Shown: positions 11,429 to 28,915 of the stretch, piece by piece
Position numbering within the stretch: the first letter of the stretch is position 1
Layout: each line of letters opens with the position of its first letter
From: Paramagnetospirillum kuznetsovii
GTDB taxonomy: Bacteria > Pseudomonadota > Alphaproteobacteria > Rhodospirillales > Magnetospirillaceae
DNA: 48,821 bases
Direction of reading: 5' to 3'
Assembly: GCF_003284725.1 (NCBI RefSeq)
Contig: NZ_PGTO01000022.1
Coordinates: 1-48,821, forward strand
Made by a program: the position numbers and the translations under genes
Notes under the pieces: model-generated
The model's database searches: none
Told to the model about the DNA's origin: nothing
Seen by the model: only the letters and a program-made list of their open reading frames with translations

Positions 11429-12027
<599 letters not shown>

Positions 12028-12031
<4 letters not shown>

Positions 12032-12702: not shown

Positions 12703-13172
12703 CCCCACCTCACCAGCGGCTCGGGCGCCGCCAGCAGCCCGTGCGGGTCATAGGCGCCCGGTTCCGGCTGGAACGGCGCCGTGTGACGGGTCACGCTCGC
12801 CCCCAGCCCTTCCACCATGTCCATCAGAACCGGATCGGCCGTCACCCGCAACCCACCGCCCGCCAAGACCTGAACCGGCACATGGCGATTGCCCACATGC
12901 CATGCCACGCGCGCGGCCAGGTCCGGCGAATTGCAATGGATATCGGCCACCTCTTCCCGTGCCGCCCGCACCACGATCACCCCGCCGCCATCCAGCGCCA
13001 GGCCGTCACCGTCCTTGAGATGGACGGCATTGGGGAGATCCAGCAGGAACTCGGCCCCGCTGTCGTCACACATGCGGAAACGGCGGCGATGGCGGTCATG
13101 GGCGGCCAGGGTCACCGAAGCGGTGGTCTCGGCGAAGGTTCCGGCGGCAAGGATCGCGGTGGCGCGGCGCAT
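12699..13172 (-). CDS. ureE: Urease accessory nickel chaperone UreE
   Basis: UreE carries Ni(II) to the UreDFG complex. The 157-residue protein begins MRRATAILAAG two bases after the ureC stop. It has the peptide-binding N-terminal domain and the metal-binding core around AWHVGNRHVPVQVL, the position of the conserved dimer-interface His. It lacks the His-rich C-terminal tail of the Klebsiella type and ends PEPLVRWG, so it probably stores little nickel. A longer open frame runs upstream through ureC antisense-frame sequence but is not coding. Confidence 0.93.
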   Translation of the reverse strand: MRRATAILAAGTFAETTASVTLAAHDRHRRRFRMCDDSGAEFLLDLPNAVHLKDGDGLALDGGGVIVVRAAREEVADIHCNSPDLAARVAWHVGNRHVPVQVLAGGGLRVTADPVLMDMVEGLGASVTRHTAPFQPEPGAYDPHGLLAAPEPLVRWG

Positions 13173-13174
13173 GG

Positions 13175-14881
13175 TCAGAACAGGAAATAGCGCTGGGCCA
13201 GCGGCAATTCCGCCGCAGGTTCGCAACTCAGCAATTGCCCGTCGGCCCGCACCTCGTAGGTTTCCGCATCCACCTCCAATTGGGGGCAGGCGTCGTTGTG
13301 GATCATGGCCGACTTGGTCAGCCCCCGCGTGCCCGACACCGCCAGCAATTGACGCGACAGGCCCAGCTTGCGGCCCAGATCGGCTTCCAGCCCCGCCTGG
13401 GAGACGAAGGTCACCGAACCGGACTGAAGCGCCCGGCCGAAGCCTCCGAACATGGGGCGGTAATGCACCGGCTGCGGTGTCGGGATCGAGGCGTTGGGAT
13501 CGCCCATCAGGGCGGCGGCGATAGTGCCGCATTTCAGCACCAGATCGGGCTTCACCCCGAAGAAGGCGGGCTTCCAGATCACCAGATCGGCCAGCTTGCC
13601 CACCGCCACCGAGCCCACATGGGCGGAAATGCCGTGGGTGATGGCGGGATTGATGGTGTATTTGGCGATATAGCGCTTGGCGCGCAGATTGTCGTTGCCC
13701 GCCTCGCCGGGAAGCTGGCCGCGCTGGGCCTTCATCTTGTGGGCGGTCTGCCACGTCCGGGTTATGACCTCGCCGATGCGGCCCATGGCCTGGGAATCCG
13801 AACTCATCATGCTCATGGCGCCGAGATCGTGCAGCACGTCTTCCGCCGCGATGGTCTCGCGGCGGATACGGCTTTCGGCGAAGGCCACATCCTCGGGGAT
13901 GCGCGAATCCAGGTGATGGCAGACCATCAGCATGTCCAGATGCTCGTCGATGGTGTTGACGGTAAACGGCATGGTGGGATTGGTCGACGACGGCAGCACA
14001 TTGGCGACGCCGCACAGCTTCAGGATATCGGGCGCATGGCCGCCGCCCGCGCCTTCGGTATGGAAGGCATGGATGGTGCGGCCCTTGAAGGCGGCCACGG
14101 TGTTTTCCACGAAACCGGATTCGTTCAGGGTATCGGTGTGGATGGCCACCTGAACGTCGAACCGATCCGCCACCGTCAGGCAATTGTCGATGGAGGCCGG
14201 GGTGGTGCCCCAGTCCTCGTGCAGTTTCAGGCCGCAGGCGCCGCCCCGGATCATCTCCTCCAGCCCGTCGGGCCGGGTGGTATTGCCCTTGCCGAAGAAG
14301 CCCAGATTGACCGGCAAACCCTCGGCGGCTTGCAGCATGCGGCCCAGATGCCAGGGACCGGGGGTGCAGGTGGTGGCGTTGGTGCCCTCGGCCGGGCCGG
14401 TGCCGCCGCCCAGCAGGGTGGTGACGCCGGAATAGAGCGCGTCGTCGGCCTGTTGCGGGCAGATGAAATGGATATGGGAATCGATGCCACCAGCGGTGAC
14501 GATACGGCCCTCGCCCGCGATGACCTCGGTGCCGGGGCCGATGATGATGTCGATGCCGGACTGGATGTCAGGATTGCCCGCCTTGCCGATGGCGGCGATG
14601 CGTCCATCCTTCAAGCCGATATCGGCCTTGACCACCCCCCAGTGATCGAGAATCAGGGCATTGGTGATGACGGTGTCCACCGCGCCTTGGGCGCGCGACA
14701 ATTGCGATTGGCCCTGGCCGTCGCGGATGACCTTGCCGCCGCCGAACTTCACCTCCTCGCCATAGGTGGTGAAATCCTTCTCCACCTCGATCACCAGATT
14801 GGTATCGCCCAGCCGCACCTTGTCGCCAGTGGTAGGGCCGAACATGGCGGCATAGGCCTTGCGTTCGATGCGAAATGCCAT
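13175..14881 (-). CDS. ureC: Urease catalytic subunit alpha
   Basis: UreC is the catalytic subunit of urease, which hydrolyses urea to ammonia and carbamate. The 568 residues match the family. Nickel ligands H136 and H138 lie in SHIHF, the carbamylated lysine is K219 in GLKLHEDWG, and the mobile-flap Cys321 and His322 lie in MVCHHLDSR. All key residues are present. I chose the ATG at 14881 ([17 protein letters not shown]), which has an AGGA ribosome-binding site 8 bases upstream; another ATG lies at 14890. The 495-bp gap to ureB is filled by the GxxExxY cassette. Confidence 0.99.
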
Positions 14882-14914
14882 GGGATGCATCCTGTCCAGG
14901 AATTGTCTTTATTG

Positions 14915-15371
14915 TCCACGAATGAACACGAATGAACACGAATGGGGAGAAGTCACAGTAGAAGTCTTTTCATTTCCAGGCGCGGCCTGCCGAAATTGAA
15001 CAGCATCCCGACTTTAAGGCCACTCGCCCTTAGATAATTCAGGACTTGGGCGGAATGGGCACCGGTCAGACTGTCCAAAGCTTTCAACTCCACGACGACA
15101 CATCCATCGACCACGAGGTCGGCAACATAAGTACCGATATCATCGCCCTTGTAATGAACGGTGAATCGAACCTCTTCCTCCGCCTCCAGACCGCGCAGGC
15201 GAAGCTCCTTGACCATGGCGCGCCGATAGAGAACCTCGAGGAACCCGGCTCCAAGCACATTGGACACCTCGAAGGCGGCGCCGATGACGGTCTTGGTCAC
15301 CGCTTCGACCTCGGGCGACAGTCCTTCACCGCCGGACGGCCTATTCGTGTTCATTCGTGTTCATTCGTGGA
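14915..15371. mobile_element. 457-bp inverted-repeat cassette with GxxExxY gene
   Basis: Perfect 29-bp inverted repeats (14915-14943 and 15343-15371) flank a single small gene. Each arm holds two tandem copies of the 10-mer AATGAACACG plus a partial one. The cassette lies in the urease operon between ureB and ureC: ureB ends 6 bp from one arm. ureB and ureC are usually adjacent, so this is an insertion. No transposase is present, so it would be non-autonomous. No target-site duplication could be identified with confidence. Confidence 0.75.
14953..15354 (-). CDS. GxxExxY family protein (PD-(D/E)XK nuclease-like)
   Basis: A 133-residue member of the GxxExxY family. The name motif is G37-F-L-E40-V-L-Y43. 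A PD-(D/E)XK-like core follows, with D79 in TYVADLVVD and E89-L-K91 in VVVELKALDSL. The family is widespread and small, and its function is not established; nuclease-like fold is a family-level prediction. The ATG at 15354 lies inside the inverted repeat, so the first residues MNTN are encoded by the repeat. The stop is about 10 bp from the other arm. It is in the same direction as the urease genes and is probably co-transcribed. Confidence 0.88.
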   Translation of the reverse strand: MNTNRPSGGEGLSPEVEAVTKTVIGAAFEVSNVLGAGFLEVLYRRAMVKELRLRGLEAEEEVRFTVHYKGDDIGTYVADLVVDGCVVVELKALDSLTGAHSAQVLNYLRASGLKVGMLFNFGRPRLEMKRLLL

Positions 15372-15376
15372 TGAAT

Positions 15377-15685
15377 TCATTTTAGCGTCCCATTGATCTG
15401 GCCGTTGAAGCCCCAGACCTCGCCGGACCCGGCATAGGCCACCAGGGTCACGTCGCGGGTCTGGCCGGGTTCGAAGCGGACGGCGGTTCCGGCCGGGATG
15501 TCGAGGCGGAAGCCCTTGGCCTTGGCGCGATCGAAGGACAGCGCCCCGTTGGTCTCGAAGAAGTGGTAATGGCTGCCCACCTGGATGGGACGGTCGCCGG
15601 TATTGGCGACGGCGAGCGTCACGGTGGCGCGGCCGTCGTTCAGCACGATCTCGCCCGGCGCGGTGATGATTTCCCCTGGGATCAT
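15377..15685 (-). CDS. ureB: Urease subunit beta
   Basis: UreB is the small structural beta subunit. The 102-residue length and the conserved stretches [24 protein letters not shown] and [13 protein letters not shown] are typical. It starts 11 bp after the ureA stop. The separate ureA, ureB and ureC genes are the usual bacterial three-subunit form. The stop codon lies 6 bp before the inverted-repeat cassette. Confidence 0.97.
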
Positions 15686-15696
15686 GGCGGCCCCCG

Positions 15697-15999
15697 TCAG
15701 CGAATGGGATTGTGGACGGTCACCAGTTTGGTGCCGTCGGGAAAGGTGGCTTCCACCTGGATATCGTGGATCATCTCGGGGATGCCCTCCATGACCTGTG
15801 AGCGGGTCAGCACGCTTGCGCCCTCGCTCATCAGCTCCGCCACGTTGCGGCCATCGCGGGCGCCCTCGACCACGAAGTCGGTGATCAGCGCCACCGCTTC
15901 CGGGTAGTTCAGCCTGACGCCGCGCTCCAACCGGCGGCGCGCCACCATGGCGGCCATGGCGATCAGCAGCTTGTCCTTTTCCCGAGGGCTCAAGTTCAT
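15697..15999 (-). CDS. ureA: Urease subunit gamma
   Basis: UreA is the gamma structural subunit. The start [16 protein letters not shown] at 15999 gives the canonical 100 residues and has an AAGAGGA ribosome-binding site 9 bases upstream. The frame stays open another 25 codons upstream into the repeat at 16037-16120, but that part is not conserved-looking. Family segments include [22 protein letters not shown] and the C-terminal TVHNPI. Confidence 0.97.
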
Positions 16000-16036
16000 G
16001 ATTCCCAGTCCTCTTTCGTCAAGACCATGAAGGAAG

Positions 16037-16120
16037 TCCACGAATGAACACGAATAAAAATTTGATATTTTCACCCTGATTTTAAAAAATTATTCGTGTT
16101 TATCCGTGTTCATTCGTGGA
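16037..16120. repeat. Empty inverted-repeat hairpin between ureD and ureA
   Basis: The outer arms (16037-16058 and 16099-16120) form a 22-bp inverted repeat with one mismatch, using the same CCACGAATGAACACGAAT motif as the cassette 700 bp away. The interior is about 40 bp of AT-rich sequence with no gene. The repeat abuts the ureD stop codon. It looks like a solo or collapsed version of the GxxExxY cassette, and could fold into a strong hairpin in the operon mRNA. Confidence 0.8.
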
Positions 16121-16951
16121 TCAAATCTCCCAAATCCTCGGCAGCCGTCGCGGTAGTCCCGCCGCTTCATGCCGCAACATCGCCCATACTGTTCCGAAGC
16201 TCTTGCGCAGCCGGGCGGCATCCTCGTCCAGCCATCGCACGATCAGCAGATCACCGACCACCGTCGCCCCGGCGCGGCCGTCCAGCATCTCGCGGACCCC
16301 ATCGCGCAGGATCATCGGCCGCGGGGTGGCCAGCACCAGGGTGGCGCAGGCGAGGGCGCCGCCGAACCCGCCCGGCGCCTTCAGCTTGGCGGCGATGTCG
16401 CCGTCCAGATGCAGGGCATCGGCCCAGATCAGACGGCCGTCGCGGCGAATTTCCCAGGCGTCGTGGACGAGACCCTGGCTCAGGCTTTCACCCTTGGCGG
16501 TGCGGCCGAACACCAGCATTTCCCCCACCATGGCGCGGGCATCGGCCGCCAGATCCAGCCGGGTGGAACGGCGCAGGCGGGCGCCTTCGAACACAATGGT
16601 CTCCTGGGGCAGGACTTCCAGCCAAGCCCCCTTCTCCACCGTCAAGCCGATGTCCACCTTGGTATCGGGACCGGTGGAACGATAGATTTTCTCGGCGGCG
16701 CTGGCGACCACCATGCCGACGGCACCCGCCGCCGCCCGCGCCGAAAGCTCCAGCCGGTCGCCGCCCGCCAGCCCGCCGGAGGTGGTGACCAGGGCAGCCT
16801 GGATCGGCTCGCCATCGGGGGGATCGGGGAACAGCACGCGCAACGGCGCCTGCTGGTACAGACGGCCCAGCCGACCCGGCTCGAAGACGATTTCGGCCTT
16901 GCCCCACATGCGGGCAAGCGGCGTCTCAGACGGTGAGGTAGCGTCTAACAT
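16121..16951 (-). CDS. ureD: Urease accessory protein UreD
   Basis: UreD is the scaffold that binds apo-urease and accepts UreF-UreG for nickel insertion. It is about 276 residues from the ATG at 16951. Recognisable segments are GKAEIVFEPGRLGRLYQQAPLR, TTSGGLAGGDRL and TKVDIGL. The start lies inside the end of urtE, giving a 26-bp overlap; a tandem ATG at 16954 and a later ATG at 16909 are alternatives. The overlap shows that the urt and ure genes form one transcription unit here. Confidence 0.93.
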   Translation of the reverse strand: MLDATSPSETPLARMWGKAEIVFEPGRLGRLYQQAPLRVLFPDPPDGEPIQAALVTTSGGLAGGDRLELSARAAAGAVGMVVASAAEKIYRSTGPDTKVDIGLTVEKGAWLEVLPQETIVFEGARLRRSTRLDLAADARAMVGEMLVFGRTAKGESLSQGLVHDAWEIRRDGRLIWADALHLDGDIAAKLKAPGGFGGALACATLVLATPRPMILRDGVREMLDGRAGATVVGDLLIVRWLDEDAARLRKSFGTVWAMLRHEAAGLPRRLPRIWEI

Positions 16952-17636
16952 CATCCTCGACCATGGTGGCGGCTTGACCGGACAGGACCACTTCGCCCCG
17001 GTCCATGACCGCGAAATCGTCGGCCAGTTCCTTGGCGAAGTCAAAATATTGCTCCACCAGCAAAACCGCCATAGCGCCCCATTCGGTCAGCTTGGAGTCC
17101 GCCAGCAGGCGGATGACCCGGCCGATATCCTTGATGATGGAGGGCTGGATGCCCTCGGTGGGCTCGTCCAGGATCAGGAGGCGCGGCCGCGTCACCAGGG
17201 CCCGCGCGACGGCAAGCTGCTGCTGCTGGCCGCCCGACAGGTCGCCGCCGCGCCGACTCAGCATGGATTTGAGCACCGGGAACAGTTCGAAGATTTCGTC
17301 GGGAATGGTGCGCCGCGCGCGCGGCAGCGGCGCGAAGCCGGTTTCCAGATTTTCCTTCACCGTCAGGCGAGCGAAGATCTCGCGCCCCTGGGGAACGAAG
17401 CCGATACCGGCCCGTGCCCGCTGATGGGCGCTCATGGCGGTGATGTCCTTGCCCTCCCAGCGGATGGCGCCGCTCTTGACCCCTTGCAGCCCCATGACGG
17501 CGCGCATCAGGCTGGTCTTGCCGACGCCGTTGCGCCCCAGCACGCAGGTGACCCTGCCCGGCTCGGCCGCCAGCGAGACGCCGCGGAGCGCGTGGCTGGC
17601 GCCGTAATAGAGGTTGATATTCTCGACCGTCAGCAT
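16926..17636 (-). CDS. urtE: Urea ABC transporter ATPase UrtE
   Basis: One of the two ATPases of the high-affinity urea importer. The 236-residue LivF-like protein has Walker A GRNGVGKTS (about 34-42), signature LSGGQQQQLAVARAL and Walker B LLILDEPTEGIQPSII. The segment EGIQPSIIKDIGRVI is typical of UrtE. It is separated from urtD by 213 bp containing a large palindromic repeat and overlaps ureD at its 3' end. Confidence 0.97.
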   Translation of the reverse strand: MLTVENINLYYGASHALRGVSLAAEPGRVTCVLGRNGVGKTSLMRAVMGLQGVKSGAIRWEGKDITAMSAHQRARAGIGFVPQGREIFARLTVKENLETGFAPLPRARRTIPDEIFELFPVLKSMLSRRGGDLSGGQQQQLAVARALVTRPRLLILDEPTEGIQPSIIKDIGRVIRLLADSKLTEWGAMAVLLVEQYFDFAKELADDFAVMDRGEVVLSGQAATMVEDDVRRYLTV

Positions 17637-17661
17637 GATGAAGCCCCCGTGGGCAGCAAAG

Positions 17662-17812
17662 TCCCTCTCCCCCTGTGGGAGAGGGATTTAGGGTGAGGGG
17701 GCCGCGCGTCGGCGCGCGATACGAGTCTATTCCGTAGAGTCCGTGGACAAGAGTCACGCGCCGCGCGGACGCGCGCCCCCTCACCCCGCCCCTCTCCCAC
17801 GAGGGGAGAGGG
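17662..17812. repeat. Inverted REP-like repeat pair between urtD and urtE
   Basis: Two inverted arms, about 17662-17718 and 17756-17812, contain CTCTCCC...GGGAGAGGG hairpins, GGGTGAGGGG tracts and CGCGCG palindromes. The 38-bp centre is unique. The arms can pair with each other or fold alone. This type of repeat is common between genes in GC-rich proteobacteria. Within the urt operon it may lower or stabilise downstream transcript. Confidence 0.75.
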
Positions 17813-17849
17813 TGTCTTGCCCGGACTTTTCATGGCTTTCCGCATTCTC

Positions 17850-18653
17850 TCAGCGCCCCAGATAGACTTCGATGACCTTGGAATCGGCCTGAATGGTTTC
17901 CAGCGTGCCCTCGGCCAATACCGAGCCCTCATGCAGCACGGTGACCTTGGCGCCGAGCGCGCGGACGAATTCCATGTCGTGCTCCACCACCACCAGCGAA
18001 CGCGAGCCGTCCCTGGCCAGATCCAGGATCAGTTGGGCGGTGGCCTCGGTCTCGGAATCGGTCATGCCCGCCACCGGCTCGTCCAGCAGCAGCAGCCGCT
18101 GGTCCTGCATCAGCAGCATGCCGATCTCCAGCCACTGCTTCTGGCCATGGGACAGCGCTCCGGCCAAGTGCCGCGATTTGTCGGCCAGGCCGATGCGGGC
18201 CATGGTGGCGTCGATGGTGTCGCGCTGCTCGCCGCTCAGCCAGAACATCAGGGTGGCGAAGGCGCCGCGATCGGCTTTCAGCGCCAGTTCCAGATTCTCG
18301 AACACGCTGAGATGCTCGAACACCGTCGGTTTCTGGAACTTGCGGCCAATGCCCAGATTGGCGATCTCGGACTCGTCGAGCCGGGTCAGGTCGACCTTCT
18401 CGTCGAACAGCACGTCGCCCTCGTCGGGCCGGGTCTTGCCGGTGATCACGTCCATCATGGTGGTCTTGCCCGCCCCGTTGGGGCCGACGATGGTGCGCAG
18501 CTCGCCGGGCGCCAGGATCAGCGACAGGGCGTTCAGCGCCTTGAAGCCGTCGAAGCTGACCGAGACGCCGTCCAGATAGAGGATGGAACCGGCGGCGGGA
18601 ACGCCGGGGCCATGGGGTTCGTCCACCTGGACTTCGAATTTGTCGTCAAGCAT
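17850..18653 (-). CDS. urtD: Urea ABC transporter ATPase UrtD
   Basis: The LivG-like ATPase of the urea importer, 267 residues. Walker A is GPNGAGKTTMMD, the signature LSHGQKQWLEIGM and Walker B LLLLDEPVAGMTDSE. ATG at 18653 has an AAGGAGA ribosome-binding site and overlaps the urtC stop by 8 bp. The N-terminal about 25 residues precede the usual ABC start. Confidence 0.97.
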   Translation of the reverse strand: MLDDKFEVQVDEPHGPGVPAAGSILYLDGVSVSFDGFKALNALSLILAPGELRTIVGPNGAGKTTMMDVITGKTRPDEGDVLFDEKVDLTRLDESEIANLGIGRKFQKPTVFEHLSVFENLELALKADRGAFATLMFWLSGEQRDTIDATMARIGLADKSRHLAGALSHGQKQWLEIGMLLMQDQRLLLLDEPVAGMTDSETEATAQLILDLARDGSRSLVVVEHDMEFVRALGAKVTVLHEGSVLAEGTLETIQADSKVIEVYLGR

Positions 18654-19764
18654 GGGCCTTCTCCTTGCGTCGAATCTGGCCCCACAAGCCCAGCAGCCCC
18701 TTGGGCAGCCCCAGGGTGACGGCGATGAACAGGGCGCCCAGCAGGAACAGCCACAGTTCCGGCGCCGCCCCGGTCAGCCAGGTCTTGGCACCGTTGACGG
18801 CGAAGGCGCCCAGCACGGCGCCCACCAGGGTGCCGCGCCCGCCCACCGCCACCCAGATGGCGATCTCGATGGAATTGGCGGGCGAGAATTCCGACGGATT
18901 GATGATGCCCACCTGCGGCACGTAAAGCGCTCCGGCCAGCCCAGCCAGCATGGCCGACAGGGTGAAGCCGAACAGCTTGACCCAGGTGGGGGAATAGCCG
19001 AGGAAGCGCACCCGGCTTTCGGCATCGCGGACCGCCATCATGATGCGGCCCAGCTTGGACGTGACCACGAATCGCGCCACCAGGAAGGCCAGCCCCAGCA
19101 CCAGTGCCGACAGCATGTACAGACCCAGCTTGGTGGACGGCTCCGCCAGGGGAAAGCCCAGGATGTCCTTGAAATCGGTCAGGCCGTTATTGCCGCCGAA
19201 CCCCATCTCGTTCCTGAAGAAGGCCAGCATCAGGGCATAGGTCATGGCCTGGGTGATGATGGACAGATAGACGCCGGTGATGCGGGAGCGAAAGGCCAGC
19301 CAGCCGAACACGAAGGCCAGGGCGCCCGGCACCGCCAAAGCCATCAGGGCGGCGAACCAGAAATGGTCGAAGCCCATCCAATACCAGGGCAGTTCCTTCC
19401 AGTTGAGGAAGACCATGAAATCGGGCAGGTCGGCATTGCCATAGACGCCCCGCGCCCCGATGGAGCGCATCATGAACATGCCCATGGCATAGCCGCCCAG
19501 GGCGAAGAAGGCGCCGTGGCCCAGGGACAGAACGCCGCAATAGCCCCAGACCAGATCCATGGCCAGCGCCAGGGTGGCGTAGCACAGATACTTGCCCAGC
19601 AGGGTGACCATGTAATTGGGCATGTGCAGCGCCGAGTCCGGCGGCATCGCCAGATTGAGCATCGGCACCACCACCAGGAAGGCGATGGCGCAACCGGCCA
19701 TGCCCAACCACAGGCGGCGGTCGTCGGCGGCCAGCAGACGGGCGGAGAGAGACGGCGCGTTCAT
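18646..19764 (-). CDS. urtC: Urea ABC transporter permease UrtC
   Basis: The LivM-like permease of the urea importer, 372 residues with multiple hydrophobic helices. The region GYCGVLSLGHGAFFALGGYAMGM and the EAA-like segment SRVRFLGYSPTWVKLFGFTLSAMLAGLAG are typical. It starts with an ATGA overlap at the urtB stop, so the two permeases are translationally coupled. Confidence 0.96.
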   Translation of the reverse strand: MNAPSLSARLLAADDRRLWLGMAGCAIAFLVVVPMLNLAMPPDSALHMPNYMVTLLGKYLCYATLALAMDLVWGYCGVLSLGHGAFFALGGYAMGMFMMRSIGARGVYGNADLPDFMVFLNWKELPWYWMGFDHFWFAALMALAVPGALAFVFGWLAFRSRITGVYLSIITQAMTYALMLAFFRNEMGFGGNNGLTDFKDILGFPLAEPSTKLGLYMLSALVLGLAFLVARFVVTSKLGRIMMAVRDAESRVRFLGYSPTWVKLFGFTLSAMLAGLAGALYVPQVGIINPSEFSPANSIEIAIWVAVGGRGTLVGAVLGAFAVNGAKTWLTGAAPELWLFLLGALFIAVTLGLPKGLLGLWGQIRRKEKAHA

Positions 19765-21344
19765 GATTCCACCGACCTTCCCTTAAGGGCGAACAGCCCC
19801 CTGGGACGTTTCTGAATGAACAGGATGATGACCACCAGAACCAGGATCTTGCCCAGCATGGCGCCGGCATAGGGTTCCAGCACCTTGTTGACGAGGCCCA
19901 GCGACAGGGCGCCCAACAGGGTGCCCCACAGCGAACCGACGCCGCCGAACACCACCACCATGAAGGAATCGACGATATAGCCCTGGCCCAGATTGGGGCT
20001 GACATTGCCGATCTGCGACAGCGCCACCCCCGCCATTCCGGCGATGCCCGAGCCCAGGCCGAAGGTTGCCGCGTCGATGCGGCCGGTGGGAATGCCCATG
20101 GCGGCGGCCATGGGGCGGTTCTGGGTGACGGCGCGCATATGGAGGCCGAAGCTGGACCAGCGCAGCAGCGCCGCCAGGGCCAGCAGCACCGCAAGGCAGA
20201 AGCCGATGATGATCACCCGGTTGTAGGTGAGCGTGAAGCCGCCGATCAGATCGATGCCGCCGGTCATCCAGGCGGGATTGGCCACCTCGCGGTTGCTGGC
20301 GCCGAAAATGGACCGCACCAGTTGCTGCAGCATCAGCGAGATGCCCCAGGTGGCCAGCATGGTTTCCAGCGGGCGGCCATAGAGGAAGCGGATGACGGTG
20401 CGTTCCAGACCGACGCCGATGACGAAGGTGACGACGAAGGCCACCGGCACCGCCACCGGCAGGTAGAGGCCCACATATTCGGGCGGCAGGGTGGCGCGGA
20501 ACACCTCCTGGACCACGAAGGCGGTATAGGCGCCCAGCATGATCATCTCGCCATGGGCCATGTTGATGACCCCCATGACGCCGAAGGTCACCGCCAGGCC
20601 GATGGCGGCCAGCAGCAGCACGCTGCCCAGGCTGAGACCCTGGAAGATATTGGCGCCGACCGACACCCAGACCAGCCGGGAATTGATGGCGCCGACCGCC
20701 TTGTCGGCGGCGGCCTTGACCTCGGGGTCGCTCTCGGTCTCCAGCATGTGCTGCAGCTGCCCGCGCACCATGGGATCGGAGGAGTCCCTCAAAGCCTGGA
20801 TGGCGGCCTTACGCCGCTCCGGGTCGGCATCGGCCAGATCCAGATTGGCGAGGGCGAGGCTCAGCATGCGCTTGACCTCGGGCAAGGTCTCGGTCTCCAG
20901 CGCCCGGCGCACCATGGCGGCGGATTCGGGGGTGGGCGAGGCGATCACCGATTCGGCGGCGCGTTTGCGCAGCTCGGGATCGGGGCTGAACAGACCCAGC
21001 CGTCCCACCGCCCCGCGCAGCACGCCGCGCAGGCGGTTGTTGACGGTAATGGGAGAGGCATCGGCGCTGGAGGCGGCGGCCTGGGTGATGGCGTCGCGAT
21101 AGGCGCCGCCCTGCTCCATCACGATGGTCCCGTCGCCCGCCGCATGCAGGCGGCCATCGGCCAGGGCTTCCAGGATGACGGCGGCGCGGCCGTCGCCCAG
21201 GGCGGACAGAGCTTCGGCGGCGGCGATCTTGTCGGCGAAATTATCGGCGTTCAGCGCACGCACCGCGTCCGAGAATTCGTCGGCATGGGCAGGTGCCCAG
21301 GCCAGCAGCGCCAACAGGACAAGGAGCAGTCGGAAGGCTTTCAA
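19761..21344 (-). CDS. urtB: Urea ABC transporter permease UrtB
   Basis: The LivH-like permease of the urea importer. At 527 residues it is the long proteobacterial form: a signal peptide (about 1-21, ending AHA), then about 200 residues of periplasmic HEAT-like helical repeats (RRKAAIQALRDSSDPMVRG), then the permease domain from about residue 230 (LGSVLLLAAIGLAVTFG). The extra domain is usual for UrtB of this group; its role is not well defined. The gap from urtA (136 bp) carries palindromic repeats. Confidence 0.96.
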   Translation of the reverse strand: MKAFRLLLVLLALLAWAPAHADEFSDAVRALNADNFADKIAAAEALSALGDGRAAVILEALADGRLHAAGDGTIVMEQGGAYRDAITQAAASSADASPITVNNRLRGVLRGAVGRLGLFSPDPELRKRAAESVIASPTPESAAMVRRALETETLPEVKRMLSLALANLDLADADPERRKAAIQALRDSSDPMVRGQLQHMLETESDPEVKAAADKAVGAINSRLVWVSVGANIFQGLSLGSVLLLAAIGLAVTFGVMGVINMAHGEMIMLGAYTAFVVQEVFRATLPPEYVGLYLPVAVPVAFVVTFVIGVGLERTVIRFLYGRPLETMLATWGISLMLQQLVRSIFGASNREVANPAWMTGGIDLIGGFTLTYNRVIIIGFCLAVLLALAALLRWSSFGLHMRAVTQNRPMAAAMGIPTGRIDAATFGLGSGIAGMAGVALSQIGNVSPNLGQGYIVDSFMVVVFGGVGSLWGTLLGALSLGLVNKVLEPYAGAMLGKILVLVVIILFIQKRPRGLFALKGRSVES

Positions 21345-21390
21345 GGGGCAAACTCCCGAGGGACGAATTTCTCTTAATACCCCCCTCCTC

Positions 21391-21463
21391 CGTCACCCCC
21401 GCGAAAGCGGGGGTCCATGGTGCATGGGGCTGCCATGGATTCCCGCTTTCGCGGGAATGACGG
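21391..21463. repeat. Back-to-back REP-like palindromes between urtA and urtB
   Basis: Two inverted copies of the CCCGCGAAAGCGGG unit (21391-21420 and 21433-21463) flank a 12-bp centre. Each folds as a hairpin, and the two can pair together through GTCA/TGAC and CCATGG ends. The unit matches the one at 11290-11317. Located after the binding-protein gene, it could protect urtA mRNA and reduce read-through into the permease genes, as known for other binding-protein operons. Confidence 0.8.
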
Positions 21464-21480
21464 GAAGCAAGTGGGACAGG

Positions 21481-22761
21481 CTACATCTTGAACTTGGGCT
21501 CGGCGCAGTTGCCGCAGACCCAGGGATAGGTCCAGTCGGCCTTCAGCTTGGCGCTTTCCGGGATGTAGGGGCTCCAGGCGTCGGCCTTGATGACGTCCTT
21601 GCTCTTCCACACGGTCTGCATCTGGCCGTTGGCCTGGATCTCGCCGATCAGGACGGGCTTGGACAGGTGATGGTTGGTGTTCATCACGGCGGTACCGCCG
21701 GTCAGATTCTTCACCTTCTGGCCGTACATGGCCTGGCGCACCGCGTCCACATTGGTGGTGCCTGCCTGCTGGACGGCCTGGGTCCACATCTTGAAGCCGA
21801 TATAGGTGGCTTCCATGGGATCGTTGGTCACCCGCTTCGGATTCTTGATGAAGGTCTTCCACTGGGCGATGAAGGCGTCGTTCTCGGGCGCCTTGACGGA
21901 CTGGAAGTAATTCCAGGCGGCCAGATGGCCCACCAGATTCTTGGTGTCGATACCGGCCAGCTCTTCCTCGCCCACCGAGAAGGCGACGACGGGGATCTGA
22001 TCGGCCTTGATGCCCTGGTTGGCCAGTTCCTTGTAGAACGGCACGTTGGCGTCGCCGTTGATGGTGGACACCACGGCGGTCTTCTTGCCGGCGGCGCCGA
22101 ACTTCTTGATGTCGGCGACGATGGTCTGCCAGTCGTTATGACCGAACGGGGTGTAGTTGATCATGATGTCCTCGGCCTTGACGCCCTTGGACTTCAGATA
22201 GGCTTCGAGAATCTTGTTGGTGGTGCGGGGATAGACATAGTCGGTGCCAGCCAGAACCCAGCGCTTCACCTCGCCGCCGTCCTTGCTCATCAGGTAGTCC
22301 ACCGCCGGGATGGCTTGCTGATTGGGCGCGGCGCCGGTGTAGAACACATTGCGCGAGCTTTCCTCGCCCTCGTACTGCACCGGATAGAACAGCAGGCCGT
22401 TCAACTGCTCGAACACCGGCAGCACCGACTTGCGCGACACCGAGGTCCAGCAGCCGAACACCGCCGCGACCTTTTCCTTTTCCAGCAGTTCGCGCGCCTT
22501 TTCGGCGAACAGCGGCCAGTTCGAGGCGGGATCGACCACCACGGCCTCCACCTTCTTGCCCAGCAGGCCGCCATGCTTGTTGATGTCGTCGACCATCATC
22601 AGGACGGTGTCCTTCAAGGTGGTCTCGGAAATGGCCATGGTGCCCGACAGCGAGTGCAGGACGCCGACCTTGATGGTGTCATCGGCGGCATTTGCCGCCG
22701 TGAAGGGCAGAAGCGAGGCGGCGGCCAGCAGACCGGCGCCGAGGGCCCGAACGAATTTCAT
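21481..22761 (-). CDS. urtA: Urea-binding periplasmic protein UrtA
   Basis: The periplasmic receptor of the urea importer, 426 residues. A signal peptide is predicted at 1-26 (cut after ANA). The mature part starts [17 protein letters not shown], followed by [15 protein letters not shown] and YTGAAPNQQ, all hallmarks of UrtA/FmdD-type receptors in the Leu/Ile/Val-binding superfamily. ATG at 22761 has a GGGAGA ribosome-binding site. It is the first gene of the urea block and has a sigma-54-type promoter. Confidence 0.98.
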   Translation of the reverse strand: MKFVRALGAGLLAAASLLPFTAANAADDTIKVGVLHSLSGTMAISETTLKDTVLMMVDDINKHGGLLGKKVEAVVVDPASNWPLFAEKARELLEKEKVAAVFGCWTSVSRKSVLPVFEQLNGLLFYPVQYEGEESSRNVFYTGAAPNQQAIPAVDYLMSKDGGEVKRWVLAGTDYVYPRTTNKILEAYLKSKGVKAEDIMINYTPFGHNDWQTIVADIKKFGAAGKKTAVVSTINGDANVPFYKELANQGIKADQIPVVAFSVGEEELAGIDTKNLVGHLAAWNYFQSVKAPENDAFIAQWKTFIKNPKRVTNDPMEATYIGFKMWTQAVQQAGTTNVDAVRQAMYGQKVKNLTGGTAVMNTNHHLSKPVLIGEIQANGQMQTVWKSKDVIKADAWSPYIPESAKLKADWTYPWVCGNCAEPKFKM

Positions 22762-22802
22762 GTGCTGTCTCCCGTGCGAGACGTTGACGATGCCGGGAGT
22801 AA

Positions 22803-22819
22803 GGCAAGGATCGGGCCAA
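22803..22819 (-). promoter_or_regulatory. Predicted sigma-54 (RpoN) promoter of urtA
   Basis: On the minus strand the sequence TTGGCCCGATCCTTGCC matches the RpoN consensus YTGGCACGrNNNTTGCW: TGGC and TTGC have exactly 7 bases between them. Only one conserved base differs (C for A). Transcription would begin about 30 bases before the urtA ATG. This implies nitrogen control by an NtrC-type activator, which is the known pattern for urea uptake and urease genes in many proteobacteria. Confidence 0.7.
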
Positions 22820-23228
22820 CAGGGCTATGTTGTTATTTTTCAATACGTTAGCGGAACTTTCATCAAATAGCCCGCCGAATCAGCGCATTAAATAATCACC
22901 GCAACACTGTCGCCGCCTAAAAACTAATCATTCGCATATTTCGCTATGCTAGCGCGCAGACCACAACAACGCACGTGCAGCAAAAAATCATTTGTCGGCA
23001 ATGCGATGCGATCAACACCACCACAACGTCGGAACAAATATATCAATGCCTAGTTTTTAGGCCATTAACCCGACACAGACTATTGCTTTACTTGCCATTA
23101 CATAAAACATAATCGACCGGACACTGCCATTTACGGCAGCCGGGTGCAAGAACGTGCAGGCTGTGACCGGCAGACTATACGTCGGCTGTGTTTCTGGTAT
23201 TTTTCCAAGGCAACAAAAAAAGAGCGTC
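22820..23228. promoter_or_regulatory. AT-rich divergent control region between urtA and the response regulator
   Basis: This gap is clearly more AT-rich than its surroundings and holds no gene. A 12-bp inverted repeat GCCTAAAAACTA (22915-22926) and TAGTTTTTAGGC (23051-23062) lies 125 bp apart; the second arm is also a local palindrome, GCCTA-N5-TAGGC (23048-23062). ACGTGCAG occurs at 22973-22980 and 23152-23159, the latter in a direct repeat GTGCAAGAAC-GTGCAGGCTG of 10-bp period. These are plausible sites for the adjacent OmpR-type regulator and for enhancer-binding activators. No good -35/-10 for the regulator gene was found. Confidence 0.5.
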
Positions 23229-23930
23229 ATGTCGCAACAGCCGCAAATCCTGGTGGTCGATGACGATGAGGCGGTCAGGGGCATCATCGCCGCCTGTGCC
23301 GCCAAGGCCGGATATCGCGTGGCCCAGTCAGAGGATGCCGCCGGTCTGCGGGCTTGGCTGGATCATGGCGGCATCGACTTGATCCTGCTGGACGTCACCT
23401 TGCCCGACGGCAACGGATTTGCCCTGGCCCGCGACCTCCGCGCCAGATACGACGTGGGCATCATCATGGTGACCGAGAAGGGCGCCCCCGACGAACGCGC
23501 CCTGGGGCTCGAGATCGGCGCCGACGATTATCTGGCCAAGCCGGTCTATCCCCGCGAATTGCTGGCGCGCATCAAGAACGTGCTGGAGCGCCGCGCCGGA
23601 TCCAGACCGCAGGCGGACGGCCACCGACTTGATTTCGCCGATTGGACCATGGATGGGCGTGAGCGGGTGGTGGCCGACCGCCACGGCCGCGCCCTCGACC
23701 TGACTCCGGCGGAATTCGATCTGCTGTCCATCCTGGTGGAGCGGGCCGGACGCATGCAGAGCCGCGACCAATTGATGGAGGCGCTGGGCTCGGCCGAAAC
23801 GGAGGCTGGACCGCGCAGCGTCGACATCCTGATCAGCCGCCTGCGCAAGAAGTTGCTTGATCCCGCGCTGATCGAGACCTGTCGCGGCCACGGCTATCGC
23901 TTCACCGCCAAGATCACGCGCGCGACCTGA
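23229..23930 (+). CDS. OmpR/TorR-type response regulator
   Basis: A 233-residue two-component regulator. The receiver domain has the acidic pocket VVDDDEA, phospho-acceptor D55 in [11 protein letters not shown], and the switch lysine in [15 protein letters not shown]-terminal winged-helix DNA-binding domain follows ([44 protein letters not shown]). Overall it resembles TorR. I chose ATG at 23229 ([13 protein letters not shown]); the frame opens upstream at 23154. It diverges from urtA across a 467-bp control region and converges on the hybrid kinase with a 17-bp 3' overlap. I infer that it is the cognate regulator of that kinase. Confidence 0.93.
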
Positions 23931-26634
23931 TCCACGCCTTCAAGGCGGCCAGCCCGATTTCGGCGGCGCCATCCATCGAAGCCGCCAGGGACGTCGCCCG
24001 CGCCGGATCACCGGCACGGATCTCGCCTTCCACCGCCTTCGCCAGCGCCCGCAGCGCCGCCATGCCATTGGAACCGGCACTGCCCGCCAATCGGTGGGCG
24101 GCGTCGGCGGTCTCCTCGTCGCGTTTCTCGGCGATGGCACGATGCAGACGCTGCAATCCCGCCAGCACCGCCGCCTCGGCGACCATGGACAGGCGCTCCA
24201 ATTCCTCCAGGCCGAGCGCCTCTTCCAATTCCTCGAGCAGCCGAAGATTGAGGGGGCCATCGGGCTCGGACTCGGCCTGGACCGCCGTGACGGAAGCCGC
24301 GCCCGACCGAACGGCGGCCAGGACTTGGTGCAGGCGGCGGGGATCGATGGGCTTGGCGACCACGTCCAGCATACCCGCCTCGACGCAAGCCGCCATGTCA
24401 TCGCGCATCAGATTGGCGGTAACCGCCACCACCGGCAACCGGCCACCTCGGCCCGCCACCACGTCGCGCATGCGCCGTGTCGCCTCGAAGCCGTCCATGC
24501 CGGGCAGCCGGATATCCACCAGCGCCACGTCGAAATCCTCGTCGCCCACGGCGGCGATGGCCTCGGCGCCATTCTTGGCGGTCACGACCCGATGCCCGGC
24601 CCGCAGCAGCAGCCCGGCCAGCACCTGCCGATTGACCTCCTCGTCCTCGACCATCAGCACCGACAGCGGCGGCACCGGCTCCAACTCGTCGCCCGGCGGT
24701 CCGGGCTGACCGGCGGCGGCCTCCGAACGGACGAAGTCCAGCAGCACGGTGAAGCAGCTTCCCACCCCCACTTCGCTTTCCACCGTGATGGCGCCGCCCA
24801 TGCCATCCACGAGGCGCTTGCAGATGGACAGGCCGAGCCCGGCACCGCCATAGCGCCGCGAAATGGAGGCATCCAGTTGGGCGAAGGGCTCGAACAATCC
24901 TTCGACGGCGTCGGGCGCGATGCCGATGCCGCTGTCGGTCACCTGGAACCGCAGGCGAACCCGGCCGCCATCGGTCTCCACCACCGTCACCGCGATGGCG
25001 ATGCCACCTTGCTCGGAGAACTTGATGGCATTGCCCAGCAGGTTGAGGAGGACTTGCCGCAGCCGGGCCGGATCGCCCACCAGTTCGCCCGGCACATCCT
25101 CGCCGACGCGGCCGTGCAGTTGCAAGCCCTTGGCGTCGGCGGGAACCCGCATCAGGGAGACGAGGCTGTGGACCAGCTCCGCCGGGTTGAAGGCGCGCTG
25201 ATCGAACGCCACCTCGCCCGCATCCACCCGCGACATGTCCAGAATGTCCGACAGCAGCACGGTCAGGGTCTCGCCCGACTGGCGGACGGTGCCAAGCCAG
25301 GCCATGGCCTGATCGTCGCCGGACACCCTGTCCTTCAGCAGTTCGGTCATGCCGATGATGCCGTTCATGGGGGTGCGCAGCTCGTGGCTCATCATGGCGA
25401 GGAACTCGGTCTTGGCCTTGGTGGCCGCCTCGGCGTGCTCCTTGGCGTCCCGCAGTTCCTGGGTGCGCTCGGCGACCTTGCGCTCCAGGCCCCGGTGGTA
25501 GGTGTGCAGTTCCAACGCCATGTCGTTGAAGGCGCTGGCCAGTTCGGCGATTTCCTGACTGCCCTCAACCATCACCGGCTCGTCGAACGCGCCCTTGGAC
25601 AAGGTCCGGGTCGCCAATCCCAATTCGTGCAGCGGCCCGGTGATGGCGCGCGACATGAAGGTGGCCATCACCAAGCCGCAGATGGCGACGATGCCCGCGA
25701 TCCAAAGCCCCATGACGCGCAACCGCGCAACGCTGGCCAGGGTCTCGGACACATCCATCTTGACCACCACGCCCCAGCGGAAGCTGGGAATATAACGCCA
25801 CGCCGCCAGCACCGTCTCGCCCCGGTAATCCTCCGCCAAGCCGACACCGCGCTCGCCGCGCAGCGCCCGGTCGAACAAACGGCCCAGCGGATCTGATTCC
25901 GACAACTGGCGCTCGGGAGCCAGGGCCTGGGCGTGGCGCACCGGTCCATAGAGGGCGATGCGCCCGCCGCCCAACCGACCGCCCGCCAGGGTCTCGCCGG
26001 TCCGGCCCAGACCGGCGTAATCGGCCAGGATGTCGGTGATGGCGGCGGGATCGATCTCCATGACCACGACGCCGATCAGGCTGCCACCATTCAGGATGGG
26101 CGACGCCACGAAGGCGGCGGGCTGGCCATAGGGCGCCGAGGGCGCGAAATCGGACATCTCGCTTTCCAGCAAGGTGCGGGCGCGGTCGAACACACTGGCC
26201 AGCAGCGAGCCGCGCAACGACCCGCTCAGCAGATTGGTGCCGCTGGCCGGTCCGGCGGTGGAGGCGAAGGCCACGTCGCCCCCGGCGGTGACCAGCATCA
26301 GATTGCGGGCGCCATAGGTATCGGCGAAACGCGACAAGATGGGCCGGAAGCGGTCCTGCGCGGCGGTGCGCGAGGCCGGGGGCGACAACGCCGTCATGGC
26401 CTCCACCACGGTGGGGATATAGGCCAGCAGGGAGATCTCGCGCAGCCTTTCCTGCGCCAAGGCCTCGATGCGCGCCGTCTTTTGGTCGGCCAGCGAGGCC
26501 ACATTGTGGCGGATCTCGTCTTCCAGCGCCCGCTCCGACACGCTGAAATAGGCCCAGACCACCATCAGCAGCGGCAAGACCCCCAACAGCAGATAACCGG
26601 CCGCGATCTCCACCGCCAAGCCCATGCGCTTCAT
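23914..26634 (-). CDS. Tripartite hybrid sensor histidine kinase (TorS-like)
   Basis: A 906-residue inner-membrane sensor kinase. Order: TM helix (about 8-30), periplasmic Cache-like sensor (about 35-305, with [16 protein letters not shown]), second TM (about 312-334), HAMP ([12 protein letters not shown]), coiled coil, HisKA with H417 in [11 protein letters not shown], HATPase ([23 protein letters not shown]), receiver with D707 in [14 protein letters not shown], and HPt with H847 in [11 protein letters not shown]. This is the H-D-H phosphorelay layout of TorS/EvgS-type kinases. The ATG at 26634 overlaps the stop of the UrtA-like gene (ATGA), so the sensor and binding protein are made together. 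The final phosphate acceptor is probably the adjacent OmpR-type regulator. Confidence 0.95.
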
Positions 26635-27923
26635 GGCCGCGCCACCCGGGCGGGGGCCGCCCAATTACCGTCCCAACCGCTGTAGAGCCGGTCGAGAAAG
26701 CTGATCCACTCGCCCTTGGGCAGGAAGGACGGATACGGCACCGGACGGACCGGCCGCTGGGAATCCCACAGAATCTCGAAATTGCCATCGGCCCGGATGC
26801 GGCCGATGCGCACCGTCTTCCAGGTATGCTGGGTCACCGGATCGATGGTGACGGTGCCGCCCGGCGCCGCCATGCTCTGGCCCTTGATGGTGGCGCGGAA
26901 GTCGCGGAACTCGGCCGAGCCCGCCTCTTCCACCGCCTTGGCCCACAGCATGACGCCGAAATACGCGGCCTCCATGGGGGCGGTGGTGACATAGCCCTCG
27001 CCGTAACGAGCCTTGAAGCCCGACACGAAGTCGCGGTTCTCATCGGTATCGACGCTTTGGAAATAGTTGCGGGCGGCATAATCGCCGACCAGCATTTCGG
27101 CGCCCATGGCCTTGACCTCGGCCTCGGCGATGGAAAAGCTCATGACCGGAATCCGGTCGGGATGAATCCCGGCATCGCGCAACGCCCGGAAGAAGCCCAG
27201 ATTGGAATCACCGTTGATGGTGTTGAAGATAACGTCGGGCCTGGCCCGCTTGATCTGGTCAACGATGGCCGTGAAATCCTGGTCGCCCAGGACGGCATAG
27301 GCCTCGCCCACCACCTGGCCCTGCAAGGCGGCCACCTGGGCGGCGATGATCTTGTTGGCGGTGCGCGGAAACACGTAGTCGGAGCCCACCAGGAACAGGC
27401 GGCGCCCCAGATGGTCGAGGCTCCATTTGATGGCGGGAATGATCTGCTGGTTGGGAGCGGCGCCGGTATAGACGATGTTGGGCGACTGCTCCAAACCCTC
27501 GTACTGCACCGGATAGAACAGTACCGCGTCATGGCGTTCGAATACCGGCTTGACGGTGCGGCGGCAGGCCGAAGTCCAGCAGCCGAACACCGCCGACACC
27601 TTGTCGGCGACGATCAGGCGCTCGGCGGCGGCGGCGAAGACGGACCAGTCGGACTTGCCATCCACCACCACCGCGTCCACCTTGCGGCCCAGCACGCCGC
27701 CCCGCCGGTTCAACTCCTCGATGGCGTATAAGGTGGCGTCGGCGACGGTGCGTTCCGACACCGCCATGGTGCCCGACAAGGAATGCAAAACCCCCACCTT
27801 GATGGGGCGCGTCTTGGATTGGCTGGGCCAGGCGGCAATGGCGGCGTAGATGGCGGCCCAACTGATACCCGCCAGCACGATGGCCGCCACGAAGTTCCGC
27901 TTGCGCTTGCCTGTATCCGCCAA
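26631..27923 (-). CDS. UrtA-like periplasmic binding protein, probable sensor partner of the hybrid kinase
   Basis: A 430-residue protein strongly like Urt[48 protein letters not shown] and NYFQSV are shared with the urtA product in this window. It likely binds urea or a short amide. The N-terminus ([17 protein letters not shown]...) is a positively charged region plus one hydrophobic helix with no clear signal-peptidase site, so it may be membrane-tethered. No permease or ATPase accompanies it. It is coupled by ATGA to the hybrid kinase, the same logic as TorT with TorS. The start is TTG at 27923 with a GGAG ribosome-binding site; thiD ends 18 bp upstream. Confidence 0.92.
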
Positions 27924-27941: not shown

Positions 27942-28733
27942 TCAGCCTAGGGGATGTCCGTGGTTGAGCGGACCGTGGCCCGCGCCCAGACCCGGAGCGG
28001 TCTCGATGGCCTTGCGGACATAGTCGCGCGCCCGCGCCACCGCCATGTCCACATCCATCCCCTGGGCGATGCCGGCGGCGATGGCGGACGCCAGGGTGCA
28101 GCCGGTGCCGTGGGTGGAGCGGCTGACGATACGGCGGCCGGAAAAGCTGCGCACACCGGCCCCATCGGCCAAGAGATCGACCAGGATATCGCCGTCCATA
28201 TGGCCGCCCTTGAGCAACACCACCTGGGGGCCCAACGCCAGCAAATCCAGTACGGCATGCTCCATGGCGGCCAGATCGGGAATGGCGCGGCCCAGCAGAA
28301 CCTCCGCCTCGGGAATATTGGGAGTCAGCAGACGCGTTCGGGGCAGCAGCAGGCGCGCCATGGCTTCGGCGGCGCTGTCGGCCAACAGCGATGCTCCCCC
28401 CTTGGCCACCATGACCGGGTCCACAACCAGCGGCACCGAGGGCGCCAATTCGGCCAGGGCCTCGGCCACCGCCTCGACAATGGCGAACGAGGCCAGCATG
28501 CCGGTCTTGATGCAATCGGCGCCGATATCGCTCAGGACCGCCGCCATCTGGGCGCGCACGAAGCCGGGCGCCACTTCGGCTATGGCGCTGACGCCCACGG
28601 TGTTTTGCGCCGTCAGGGCGGTAATGGCGGTGGTGGCATAGCCCCCCAGGCAAGTAATCGCCTTGATGTCCGCCTGAATTCCAGCGCCACCGCCCGAATC
28701 CGAGCCCGCAACCACCAGTACGCGCCCCTTCAT
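27942..28733 (-). CDS. thiD: Hydroxymethylpyrimidine/phosphomethylpyrimidine kinase
   Basis: ThiD phosphorylates HMP and HMP-phosphate in thiamine pyrophosphate synthesis. The 263-residue ribokinase-fold protein begins MKGRVLVVAGSDSGGGAGIQADIKA and has the C-terminal catalytic segment STHGTGCTLASAIAAG. I chose ATG at 28733 with a GAGAGGA ribosome-binding site; the frame extends 30 codons upstream without support. It is the first gene of a possible unit with the UrtA-like protein and hybrid kinase; a functional link is not evident. No other thi genes are in the window. Confidence 0.95.
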   Translation of the reverse strand: MKGRVLVVAGSDSGGGAGIQADIKAITCLGGYATTAITALTAQNTVGVSAIAEVAPGFVRAQMAAVLSDIGADCIKTGMLASFAIVEAVAEALAELAPSVPLVVDPVMVAKGGASLLADSAAEAMARLLLPRTRLLTPNIPEAEVLLGRAIPDLAAMEHAVLDLLALGPQVVLLKGGHMDGDILVDLLADGAGVRSFSGRRIVSRSTHGTGCTLASAIAAGIAQGMDVDMAVARARDYVRKAIETAPGLGAGHGPLNHGHPLG

Positions 28734-28915
28734 TTGCAATCCTCTCATTTGGAATGGCTTGGCGACATTCTGCCACAACGCAGATGCGAGACTACATCTA
28801 GGTGACAAATTGTAATACAGCACCAGATGGGGGCTTTACCCTATTGTGCATCGCACCATTCTAATGTACGACTCACTCTATATCAGCGACGCTTCACCAT
28901 AGCACGAGGCTCTCC

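Follow-up and report, generated by a model that had tools for sequence, protein, structure and literature searches.

A candidate urea-sensing phosphorelay built on a UrtA-like binding protein beside the urea uptake operon of Paramagnetospirillum kuznetsovii

On contig NZ_PGTO01000022.1 of Paramagnetospirillum kuznetsovii (positions 1-48,821, referred to as the window), the gene of a UrtA-like binding protein, here called sBP, is coupled to that of a hybrid sensor kinase and accompanied by an OmpR/TorR-type response regulator gene located next to the urea transporter gene urtA. This module is real and conserved, and we consider it probable, going by sequence comparison, that it constitutes a dedicated urea-sensing phosphorelay acting on urtABCDE and the urease genes (ure) atop a sigma-54-type promoter. 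Gene order, domains, binding pocket, phospho-acceptor sites, co-occurrence and conservation of a DNA repeat were all observed directly. From these we infer the contact of sBP with the kinase, the partnership of kinase and regulator, DNA binding by the latter and urt as its target; urea as signal and urt as target appear well supported by the genome comparisons. In the proposed mechanism, sBP, located in the periplasm or anchored to the periplasmic face of the membrane, would bind urea and contact the Cache domain of the co-translated kinase. This contact would set the HisKA-REC-HPt relay (H417 to D707 to H847), and phosphate would be passed from H847 of HPt to D55 of the regulator. The regulator would then bind direct repeats of 11-bp period (GAAA-N7-GAAA) that lie between its gene and urtA, and would adjust expression of urtABCDE-ure, and probably of its own gene, atop the sigma-54 (nitrogen-status) promoter of urtA.

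The gene of sBP (430 amino acids) occupies positions 26631-27923 on the minus strand with TTG at 27923 as start codon, and its stop overlaps in an ATGA with the start of the kinase gene (23914-26634, minus strand; 906 amino acids, assigned by Pfam domains). The regulator gene (23229-23930, plus strand; ATG at 23229, stop ending at 23930) converges on the kinase gene with an overlap of 17 bp and diverges from urtA (21481-22761, minus strand), which was assigned by family models as encoding the urea ABC transporter binding protein and is the presumed regulator target. An earlier note on this DNA had given the span 23229-27923 and the ATGA overlap, both of which held when rechecked in the DNA, and had also stated that the binding protein has no permease or ATPase of its own; indeed, its gene is tied to the kinase gene instead. 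Pairing of a binding-protein gene with a kinase gene rather than with a transporter is what defines binding-protein/kinase sensory systems, and this pairing was found here.

Regarding the ligand, urea or a short amide had been proposed. sBP belongs to Pfam family Peripla_BP_5, contains the motif letters earlier taken as UrtA hallmarks and passes the NCBIfam UrtA model TIGR03407 with 504.9 bits (cut-off 492.75), at 42% identity to the UrtA of the window; its N-terminal hydrophobic segment is, by eye, a signal peptide or anchor. TIGR03407 is not ligand-specific, as one protein with a changed pocket, belonging to those that we take to be FmdD-like, scores 558.9 bits. According to PMC10392092, nine residues surround urea in the solved UrtA of Prochlorococcus, where changes of W120, S122, Q144, Y190 or N246 strongly lower or abolish urea binding, Y141, E146 and S274 are less important, and F192 is hardly so. 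All nine urea-lining positions are kept in sBP (W116, S118, Y137, Q140, E142, Y183, F185, N237 and S264), Q140 and N237 being the equivalents of UrtA Q144 and N246. Of 55 sensor proteins, 49 show the resulting pattern WSYQEYFNS without change, and it deviates in six (L071, L072, L080, L090, L098 and L100; L numbers denote loci and G numbers genomes). The UrtA proteins share it with Y at the place of F192 (41/41). The two FmdD-like proteins carry F at the place of Q144 and V at that of N246, and alignment places P and V at these positions in AmiC. Since the equivalents of Q144 and N246 are kept in sBP and changed in the FmdD-like proteins and AmiC, the pocket argues for urea over short amides; of the two ligands proposed earlier, we thus infer urea. 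Among solved structures, the best match of sBP is 8tg1, which has no ligand in its name, followed by three named urea transporter binding proteins. In two sensor protein-kinase pairs (L114 in G479 and L115 in G576) the pocket reads ASYPEGNAA and ASYPEGNTA, respectively, which suggests a different ligand.

The kinase lies above the Pfam cut-offs for HAMP, HisKA, HATPase_c and REC and just below those for dCache_1 (43.3 vs 45) and HPt (24.3 vs 24.6). From N- to C-terminus, a membrane segment, the Cache domain, another membrane segment, HAMP, HisKA (H417), HATPase, REC (D707) and HPt (H847) follow each other, so that the previously described set of periplasmic sensor, HisKA, REC and HPt was found again, with HPt marginally sub-threshold. 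The phospho-accepting residues H417, D707 and H847 are kept in 20/20 aligned kinases; the regulator is composed of a receiver and a Trans_reg_C domain (Pfam) with D55 as phospho-acceptor in the window copy. All His-Asp-His-Asp residues for a four-step phosphorelay (kinase H417/D707/H847 and regulator D55) are therefore intact. The N-terminal 395 residues of the kinase were modelled from a 20-sequence alignment (mean predicted local distance difference test score, pLDDT, of 85), yielding a mixed helix-strand domain. Among the best 50 Foldseek matches listed, Cache-type domains of PctA, Tlp3 and DctB led and TorS was not found; judged by this model, the kinase sensor is a double Cache domain.

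This bears on the description of the module as TorTSR-like. In the TorT-TorS-TorR system for trimethylamine oxide, a binding protein and a hybrid kinase with REC and HPt are combined with an OmpR-type regulator beside the target operon, as here, and the three-gene working logic hence stands. Membership of kinase and regulator in the TorS and TorR families was rejected, as both scores are well under the cut-offs: 414.5 vs 676.5 bits for TorS (TIGR02956), with the match confined to residues 301-901, and 182.4 vs 275 bits for TorR (NF008034). The regulator, said to be of TorR type and to diverge from urtA, thus keeps its divergent position and its OmpR-type assignment, but not the narrower label. 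Moreover, the periplasmic sensor domain of TorS is helical, whereas a Cache fold is predicted by the model for the kinase studied here, and the binding protein here is UrtA-like.

The distribution of the module was surveyed order-wide in 317 genomes using cut-offs of E <= 1e-106 for sBP, 1e-140 for UrtA and 1e-54 for the regulator, the best 5 or 9 first-look candidates being scored per genome; the regulator cut-off was chosen after seeing the first regulator search results. sBP was found in 22, UrtA in 117 and the regulator in 27 of the 317 genomes. Within the window's family, 11 of 55 genomes contain sBP at 72-100% identity, G011 adding a fragment (71%) and G001 a less similar sBP (52%). Both sBP and UrtA are present in 20 genomes from 10 genera, with G011 counted on its fragment. 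Nineteen of these 20 contain the regulator, and in the last one (G175) a copy next to urtA is truncated by the end of the contig; this copy was found by inspecting that locus, the controls being scored by the cut-off search. Such controls, namely the 97 genomes with UrtA and without sBP, contain no regulator at the cut-off (0/97).

In 19 of the 20 genomes the regulator diverges from urtA. The block as a whole was found again in ten further genomes (G040, G021, G032, G024, G023, G029, G211, G258, G169 and G257, with a 2-kb gap in G211), and the gene arrangement is hence beyond chance. In G048, G025, G012, G173 and G174 the sBP-kinase pair is located on another contig or 100 kb off, with the regulator still divergent from urtA, and in G185 approximately 6 kb separate the sensor-kinase genes from the urtA-side regulator. 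In G202, the exception, the regulator gene lies with that of the kinase, 0.66 Mb away from urtA. On the genetic side, it is above all the regulator being 'glued' to urtA that argues for urt as target. A survey for a conserved trio near urt/ure genes had been suggested as a check by the earlier note; the trio does recur, and the regulator remains at urtA after sBP and kinase have moved. A sensor gene before a kinase gene, together with UrtA in the locus, was also seen in Paramagnetospirillum marisnigri SP-1 (L248) and Insolitispirillum peregrinum DSM 11589 (L249).

A candidate regulator site was obtained by searching 700 bp upstream of urtA, on the urtA strand, for GAAA-N7-GAAA, a repeat with 11-bp period. 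This box is present in 19/20 sensor-positive genomes vs 1/18 controls, the latter being UrtA-positive, sBP-negative genomes with loci fetched and not a random draw from the 97. In total, 35 sites were counted vs 0.35 expected from dinucleotide shuffles; any other spacing from 4 to 24 gave at most 3 sites and the opposite strand gave 1, and a chance AT-rich match was ruled out by period spectrum and shuffles. Two sites 110-115 bp apart occur in nine genomes. An 11-bp site spacing suits an OmpR/PhoB-type regulator. In the window, the predicted box GAAAAATACCAGAAACA (23189-23205, minus strand) comprises two GAAA half-sites 11 bp apart, 23 bp 5' of the regulator start codon. Among three class-level genomes with sBP and UrtA, G427 displays four tandem half-sites forming 3 overlapping sites upstream of urtA (reached by 0/2000 shuffles), and no regulator gene was seen there beside urtA within 4.3 kb. 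The fuller pattern GAAAHA-N5-GAAAYA has 43 matches in 12 whole genomes, 23 of them in the regulator/urtA region (two in the second G202 copy of this region), compared to 8 matches in total for the reversed pattern. No boxes were found upstream of sBP in 25/26 loci and, hence, the sBP-kinase genes are probably outside the regulon of their own regulator. A perfect 12-bp inverted repeat in the same intergenic region (GCCTAAAAACTA at 22915-22926 and TAGTTTTTAGGC at 23051-23062) had been the first guess for the regulator site; it was dropped, as no such pair stood out by eye in other intergenic regions.

A sigma-54-like promoter element of urtA, TGGCCCGATCCTTGC, is located at 22804-22818 (minus strand). 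In the loose form TGGC-N7..9-T/C-GC, 51-81 bp before the urtA start, it was detected in 17/20 sensor-positive genomes and 15/18 controls. The first layer is thus probably general nitrogen control, which the regulator may modulate from about 250-470 bp upstream, or the regulator may also drive its own gene. As a rule, sigma-54 promoters are not directly activated by OmpR-type regulators, so that the predicted control could be of either sign and of more than one mode. A sigma-70 promoter scan of 22700-23300 gave nothing, and a pattern search of the window's intergenic region gave no NtrC-like sites. In G048 (L041, ~7081-7171) the regulator/urtA intergenic region measures only ~90 bp, the box sits at -69, and no sigma-54-like element occupies the usual place.

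Several points weigh against a urea-sensing phosphorelay with urt as target. It rests on genomes, with binding, phosphotransfer and expression being predicted, and the naive Fisher p of ~6e-23 for the regulator (20/20 vs 0/97) is overstated due to genome kinship. By itself, the regulator cut-off fails to split orthologs from paralogs: the other eight regulator matches (44-48% identity) come from genomes without UrtA and sBP at the cut-offs, and weaker matches (44-46%, 1e-51 to 1e-53) occur in G033, G050, G051, G052 and G054, all of which have UrtA and no sBP and carry the match on contigs other than that of urtA. The match in G007, a genome without UrtA, is even slightly better (1.0e-58) than the urtA-side regulator of G169 (1.5e-58); the true regulator is distinguished by its place beside urtA. 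Furthermore, sBP occurs in G030, G001 and G163, where UrtA and the regulator are both missing at the cut-offs. G479 and G576 combine diverged pockets with a regulator away from urtA, a pattern as expected if pocket and output change together. Boxes upstream of urtA are missing in G211 and in class-level genomes G671 and G479, the latter two having both sBP and UrtA. G202 carries two copies of the regulator/urtA intergenic segment (L161 and L103), one preceding urtA and the other the regulator, which share their sites and are separated by 0.66 Mb; its box copy in a duplicated segment is therefore weak independent evidence. The window itself holds one box where 0.73 are expected by chance in 48.8 kb, so that this box counts only because its place is conserved. 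Finally, the box nearest the regulator sits just before its start codon, and autoregulation alone could explain part of the conservation.

This last point leads to an alternative that we regard as unlikely, although less so than the others: the module senses urea, while the only targets of the regulator are its own promoter and unlinked genes, and its position next to urtA reflects inherited gene order. The position of the window box 23 bp before the regulator start codon fits this explanation, as do the 20 of 43 fuller-pattern matches that lie elsewhere in the 12 genomes, given 8 in all for the reversed pattern. It accounts poorly for regulator and urtA remaining together after sBP and kinase have moved, for the boxes before urtA in G427, where the 4.3 kb seen beside urtA hold no regulator gene, and for the absence of the regulator at the cut-off from all 97 genomes with UrtA and without sBP.

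Changing the ligand instead of the target, sBP might sense a short amide or another small polar molecule, which seems rather improbable. AmiC and FmdD-type relatives bind amides, 42% identity to UrtA leaves room for another ligand, some genomes with sBP-kinase pairs lack UrtA, and passing the UrtA model does not prove urea; against this stand the retention of Q144 and N246 as Q140 and N237, where FmdD-like proteins have F/V and AmiC P/V, and the three urea transporter binding proteins following 8tg1 among the solved matches. Very improbable, in our view, is that sBP serves as second substrate-binding protein of the Urt permease next to a kinase unrelated to urea. Passing the UrtA model is compatible with such a role, but the genetic evidence contradicts a place for sBP with UrtBCDE: its gene overlaps the kinase gene and not permease genes, it occurs in genomes without any other UrtA at E <= 1e-60, and its branch is apart from UrtA.

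That branch was examined in a tree of 71 proteins (every second of 41 UrtA, 31 chosen of 55 sensor proteins and 14 named ones). A branch with support 92/89, recovered in 94% of bootstrap trees, separates off the 45 sensor proteins, and a second one (97/93) the 21 UrtA, ruling out sBP as a duplicate of the local UrtA; an FmdD-like pair stands nearer the sensors and a chemoreceptor-fused trio nearer UrtA. Of the 38 sBP loci fetched, 35 have a kinase with the same sensor domain next after sBP, the exceptions being L113, L116 and L119. Conversely, a kinase-domain search gave 79 loci, of which 55 were checked for a neighbouring sBP, the other 24 having matched over shorter stretches of mostly ~130 residues. 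sBP directly precedes the kinase in 32 of the 55 and is lacking in 22; L262 has only a UrtA-type protein, located elsewhere. WSYQEYFNS is kept in 28 of the 32 kinase-adjacent sBPs. These sBP-kinase loci include Candidatus Nitrotoga, Methylobacter, Allochromatium, Sulfuricella, Niveibacterium, Troglogloeales, Nitrospinales and Planctomycetota. Class and phylum searches covered samples of 385 and 398 genomes. Six distant sBP genomes (G700, G721, G726, G785, G859 and G789) have no other UrtA at E <= 1e-60, and the sensor must therefore have other outputs there. The chances are about even that all this reflects a widespread class of extracytoplasmic urea sensors, in which one UrtA-like branch abandoned transport to serve Cache-type kinases as their ligand-binding half in Pseudomonadota, Nitrospirota, Nitrospinota and Planctomycetota, with the urea uptake operon as output in Magnetospirillum-like and related alphaproteobacteria.

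Variations on the theme were also encountered. Kinases with the same sensor domain occur in L268, L270, L273, L275, L281 and L283 (Nitrosomonas, a Burkholderiales relative) with no sBP-like binding protein within the locus. The chemoreceptor fusions (L053:7713-9947, minus; L054:8175-10454, minus; L057:6065-8413, plus) carry a methyl-accepting chemotaxis protein signalling domain before Peripla_BP_5 (Pfam on L053 and L057). They show no obvious membrane segment by eye, possibly being cytoplasmic chemoreceptors, and have the pocket WSYQETYGS, with T for Y190 and G for N246; a table of PMC8547431 lists just one chemoreceptor that contains Peripla_BP_5. In L052:7847-12818 and L056:8413-13544, an FmdD-like binding protein and urtBCD-like genes diverge from a hybrid kinase of ~1175 amino acids followed by a receiver protein. 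Pfam assigns HisKA, HATPase and REC to this kinase; its N-terminal half has no Pfam match and, by eye, looks transporter-like with multiple membrane spans. Perhaps the same arrangement exists in Dechloromonas aromatica, for which a table in PMC2907700 gives a 1131-aa kinase and a 308-aa receiver adjoining a protein named UrtA.

In waters and soils, urea serves as a major source of nitrogen, and, to our knowledge, bacterial urea genes have mostly been described as being under general nitrogen control. Among proteins responding to urea, UreR is an AraC-type intracellular regulator and Helicobacter TlpB a chemoreceptor; neither is a binding protein with a kinase. AmiC from Pseudomonas aeruginosa, matched by sBP in a structure-database search, is a relative used as sensor rather than transporter; it is cytoplasmic, binds amides and holds the antiterminator AmiR, and its pocket residues differ from those of sBP. 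With UrtA of the urea ABC transporter, sBP shares the family model and the urea pocket; unlike UrtA, it is tied to a kinase and not to permease/ATPase, forms a separate branch and mostly has F for Y at the 192 position. LuxQ lacks an HPt domain and signals through LuxU/LuxO, and XylFII-LytS differs from the system described here in ligand, binding-protein and kinase families. Likewise, LuxP-LuxQ has another ligand and another binding-protein family, and the kinase reaches 292.4 bits vs the cut-off of 1200 for LuxQ (NF041947). In PMC6321045, XylFII-LytS, TorT-TorS and LuxP-LuxQ appear as solved binding-protein/kinase complexes: XylFII reports xylose to LytS, TorT contacts TorS as binding protein on kinase, and a periplasmic binding protein recognizing autoinducer-2 is joined to a membrane hybrid kinase. 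By analogy, sBP and its kinase may work like these three with a new ligand class. H. pylori is attracted to urea according to PMC5245789. For a urea-sensing binding-protein/kinase system, no description was found in searches of the open-licence PMC literature, mostly judged by result listings, subscription papers being outside this scope.

If true, a periplasmic sensor would let cells distinguish 'nitrogen short' from 'urea here', with urea being sensed outside before import, and bacteria including relatives of nitrifiers, methanotrophs and sulfur oxidizers would register urea in their environment apart from the nitrogen status of their cytoplasm. Sensors would then be found among the proteins named 'urea ABC transporter binding protein', since the standard model TIGR03407 accepts sBP. 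As it also accepts the pocket-changed FmdD-like protein, automatic 'urea ABC transporter' names can mislead.

The remaining genes of the presumed target follow urtA on the minus strand, urtABCDE and the urease genes together spanning 11429-22761. Permease domains and position identify urtB (19761-21344) and urtC (18646-19764), and urtD (17850-18653) and urtE (16926-17636) score above their NCBIfam cut-offs. Domain searches assigned UreD (16121-17044), urease gamma (15697-16074), UreC (13175-14890), UreF (12028-12708) and a UreG-type protein (11429-12031). On the other side of the module, a phosphomethylpyrimidine kinase (thiD-like) gene at 27942-28823 (minus strand) ends 18 bp before sBP; this neighbour was not found in the 20 fetched loci of relatives. 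Within the urease gene cluster, a gene of the PD-(D/E)XK nuclease family (PF13366) is located at 14953-15354 on the minus strand.

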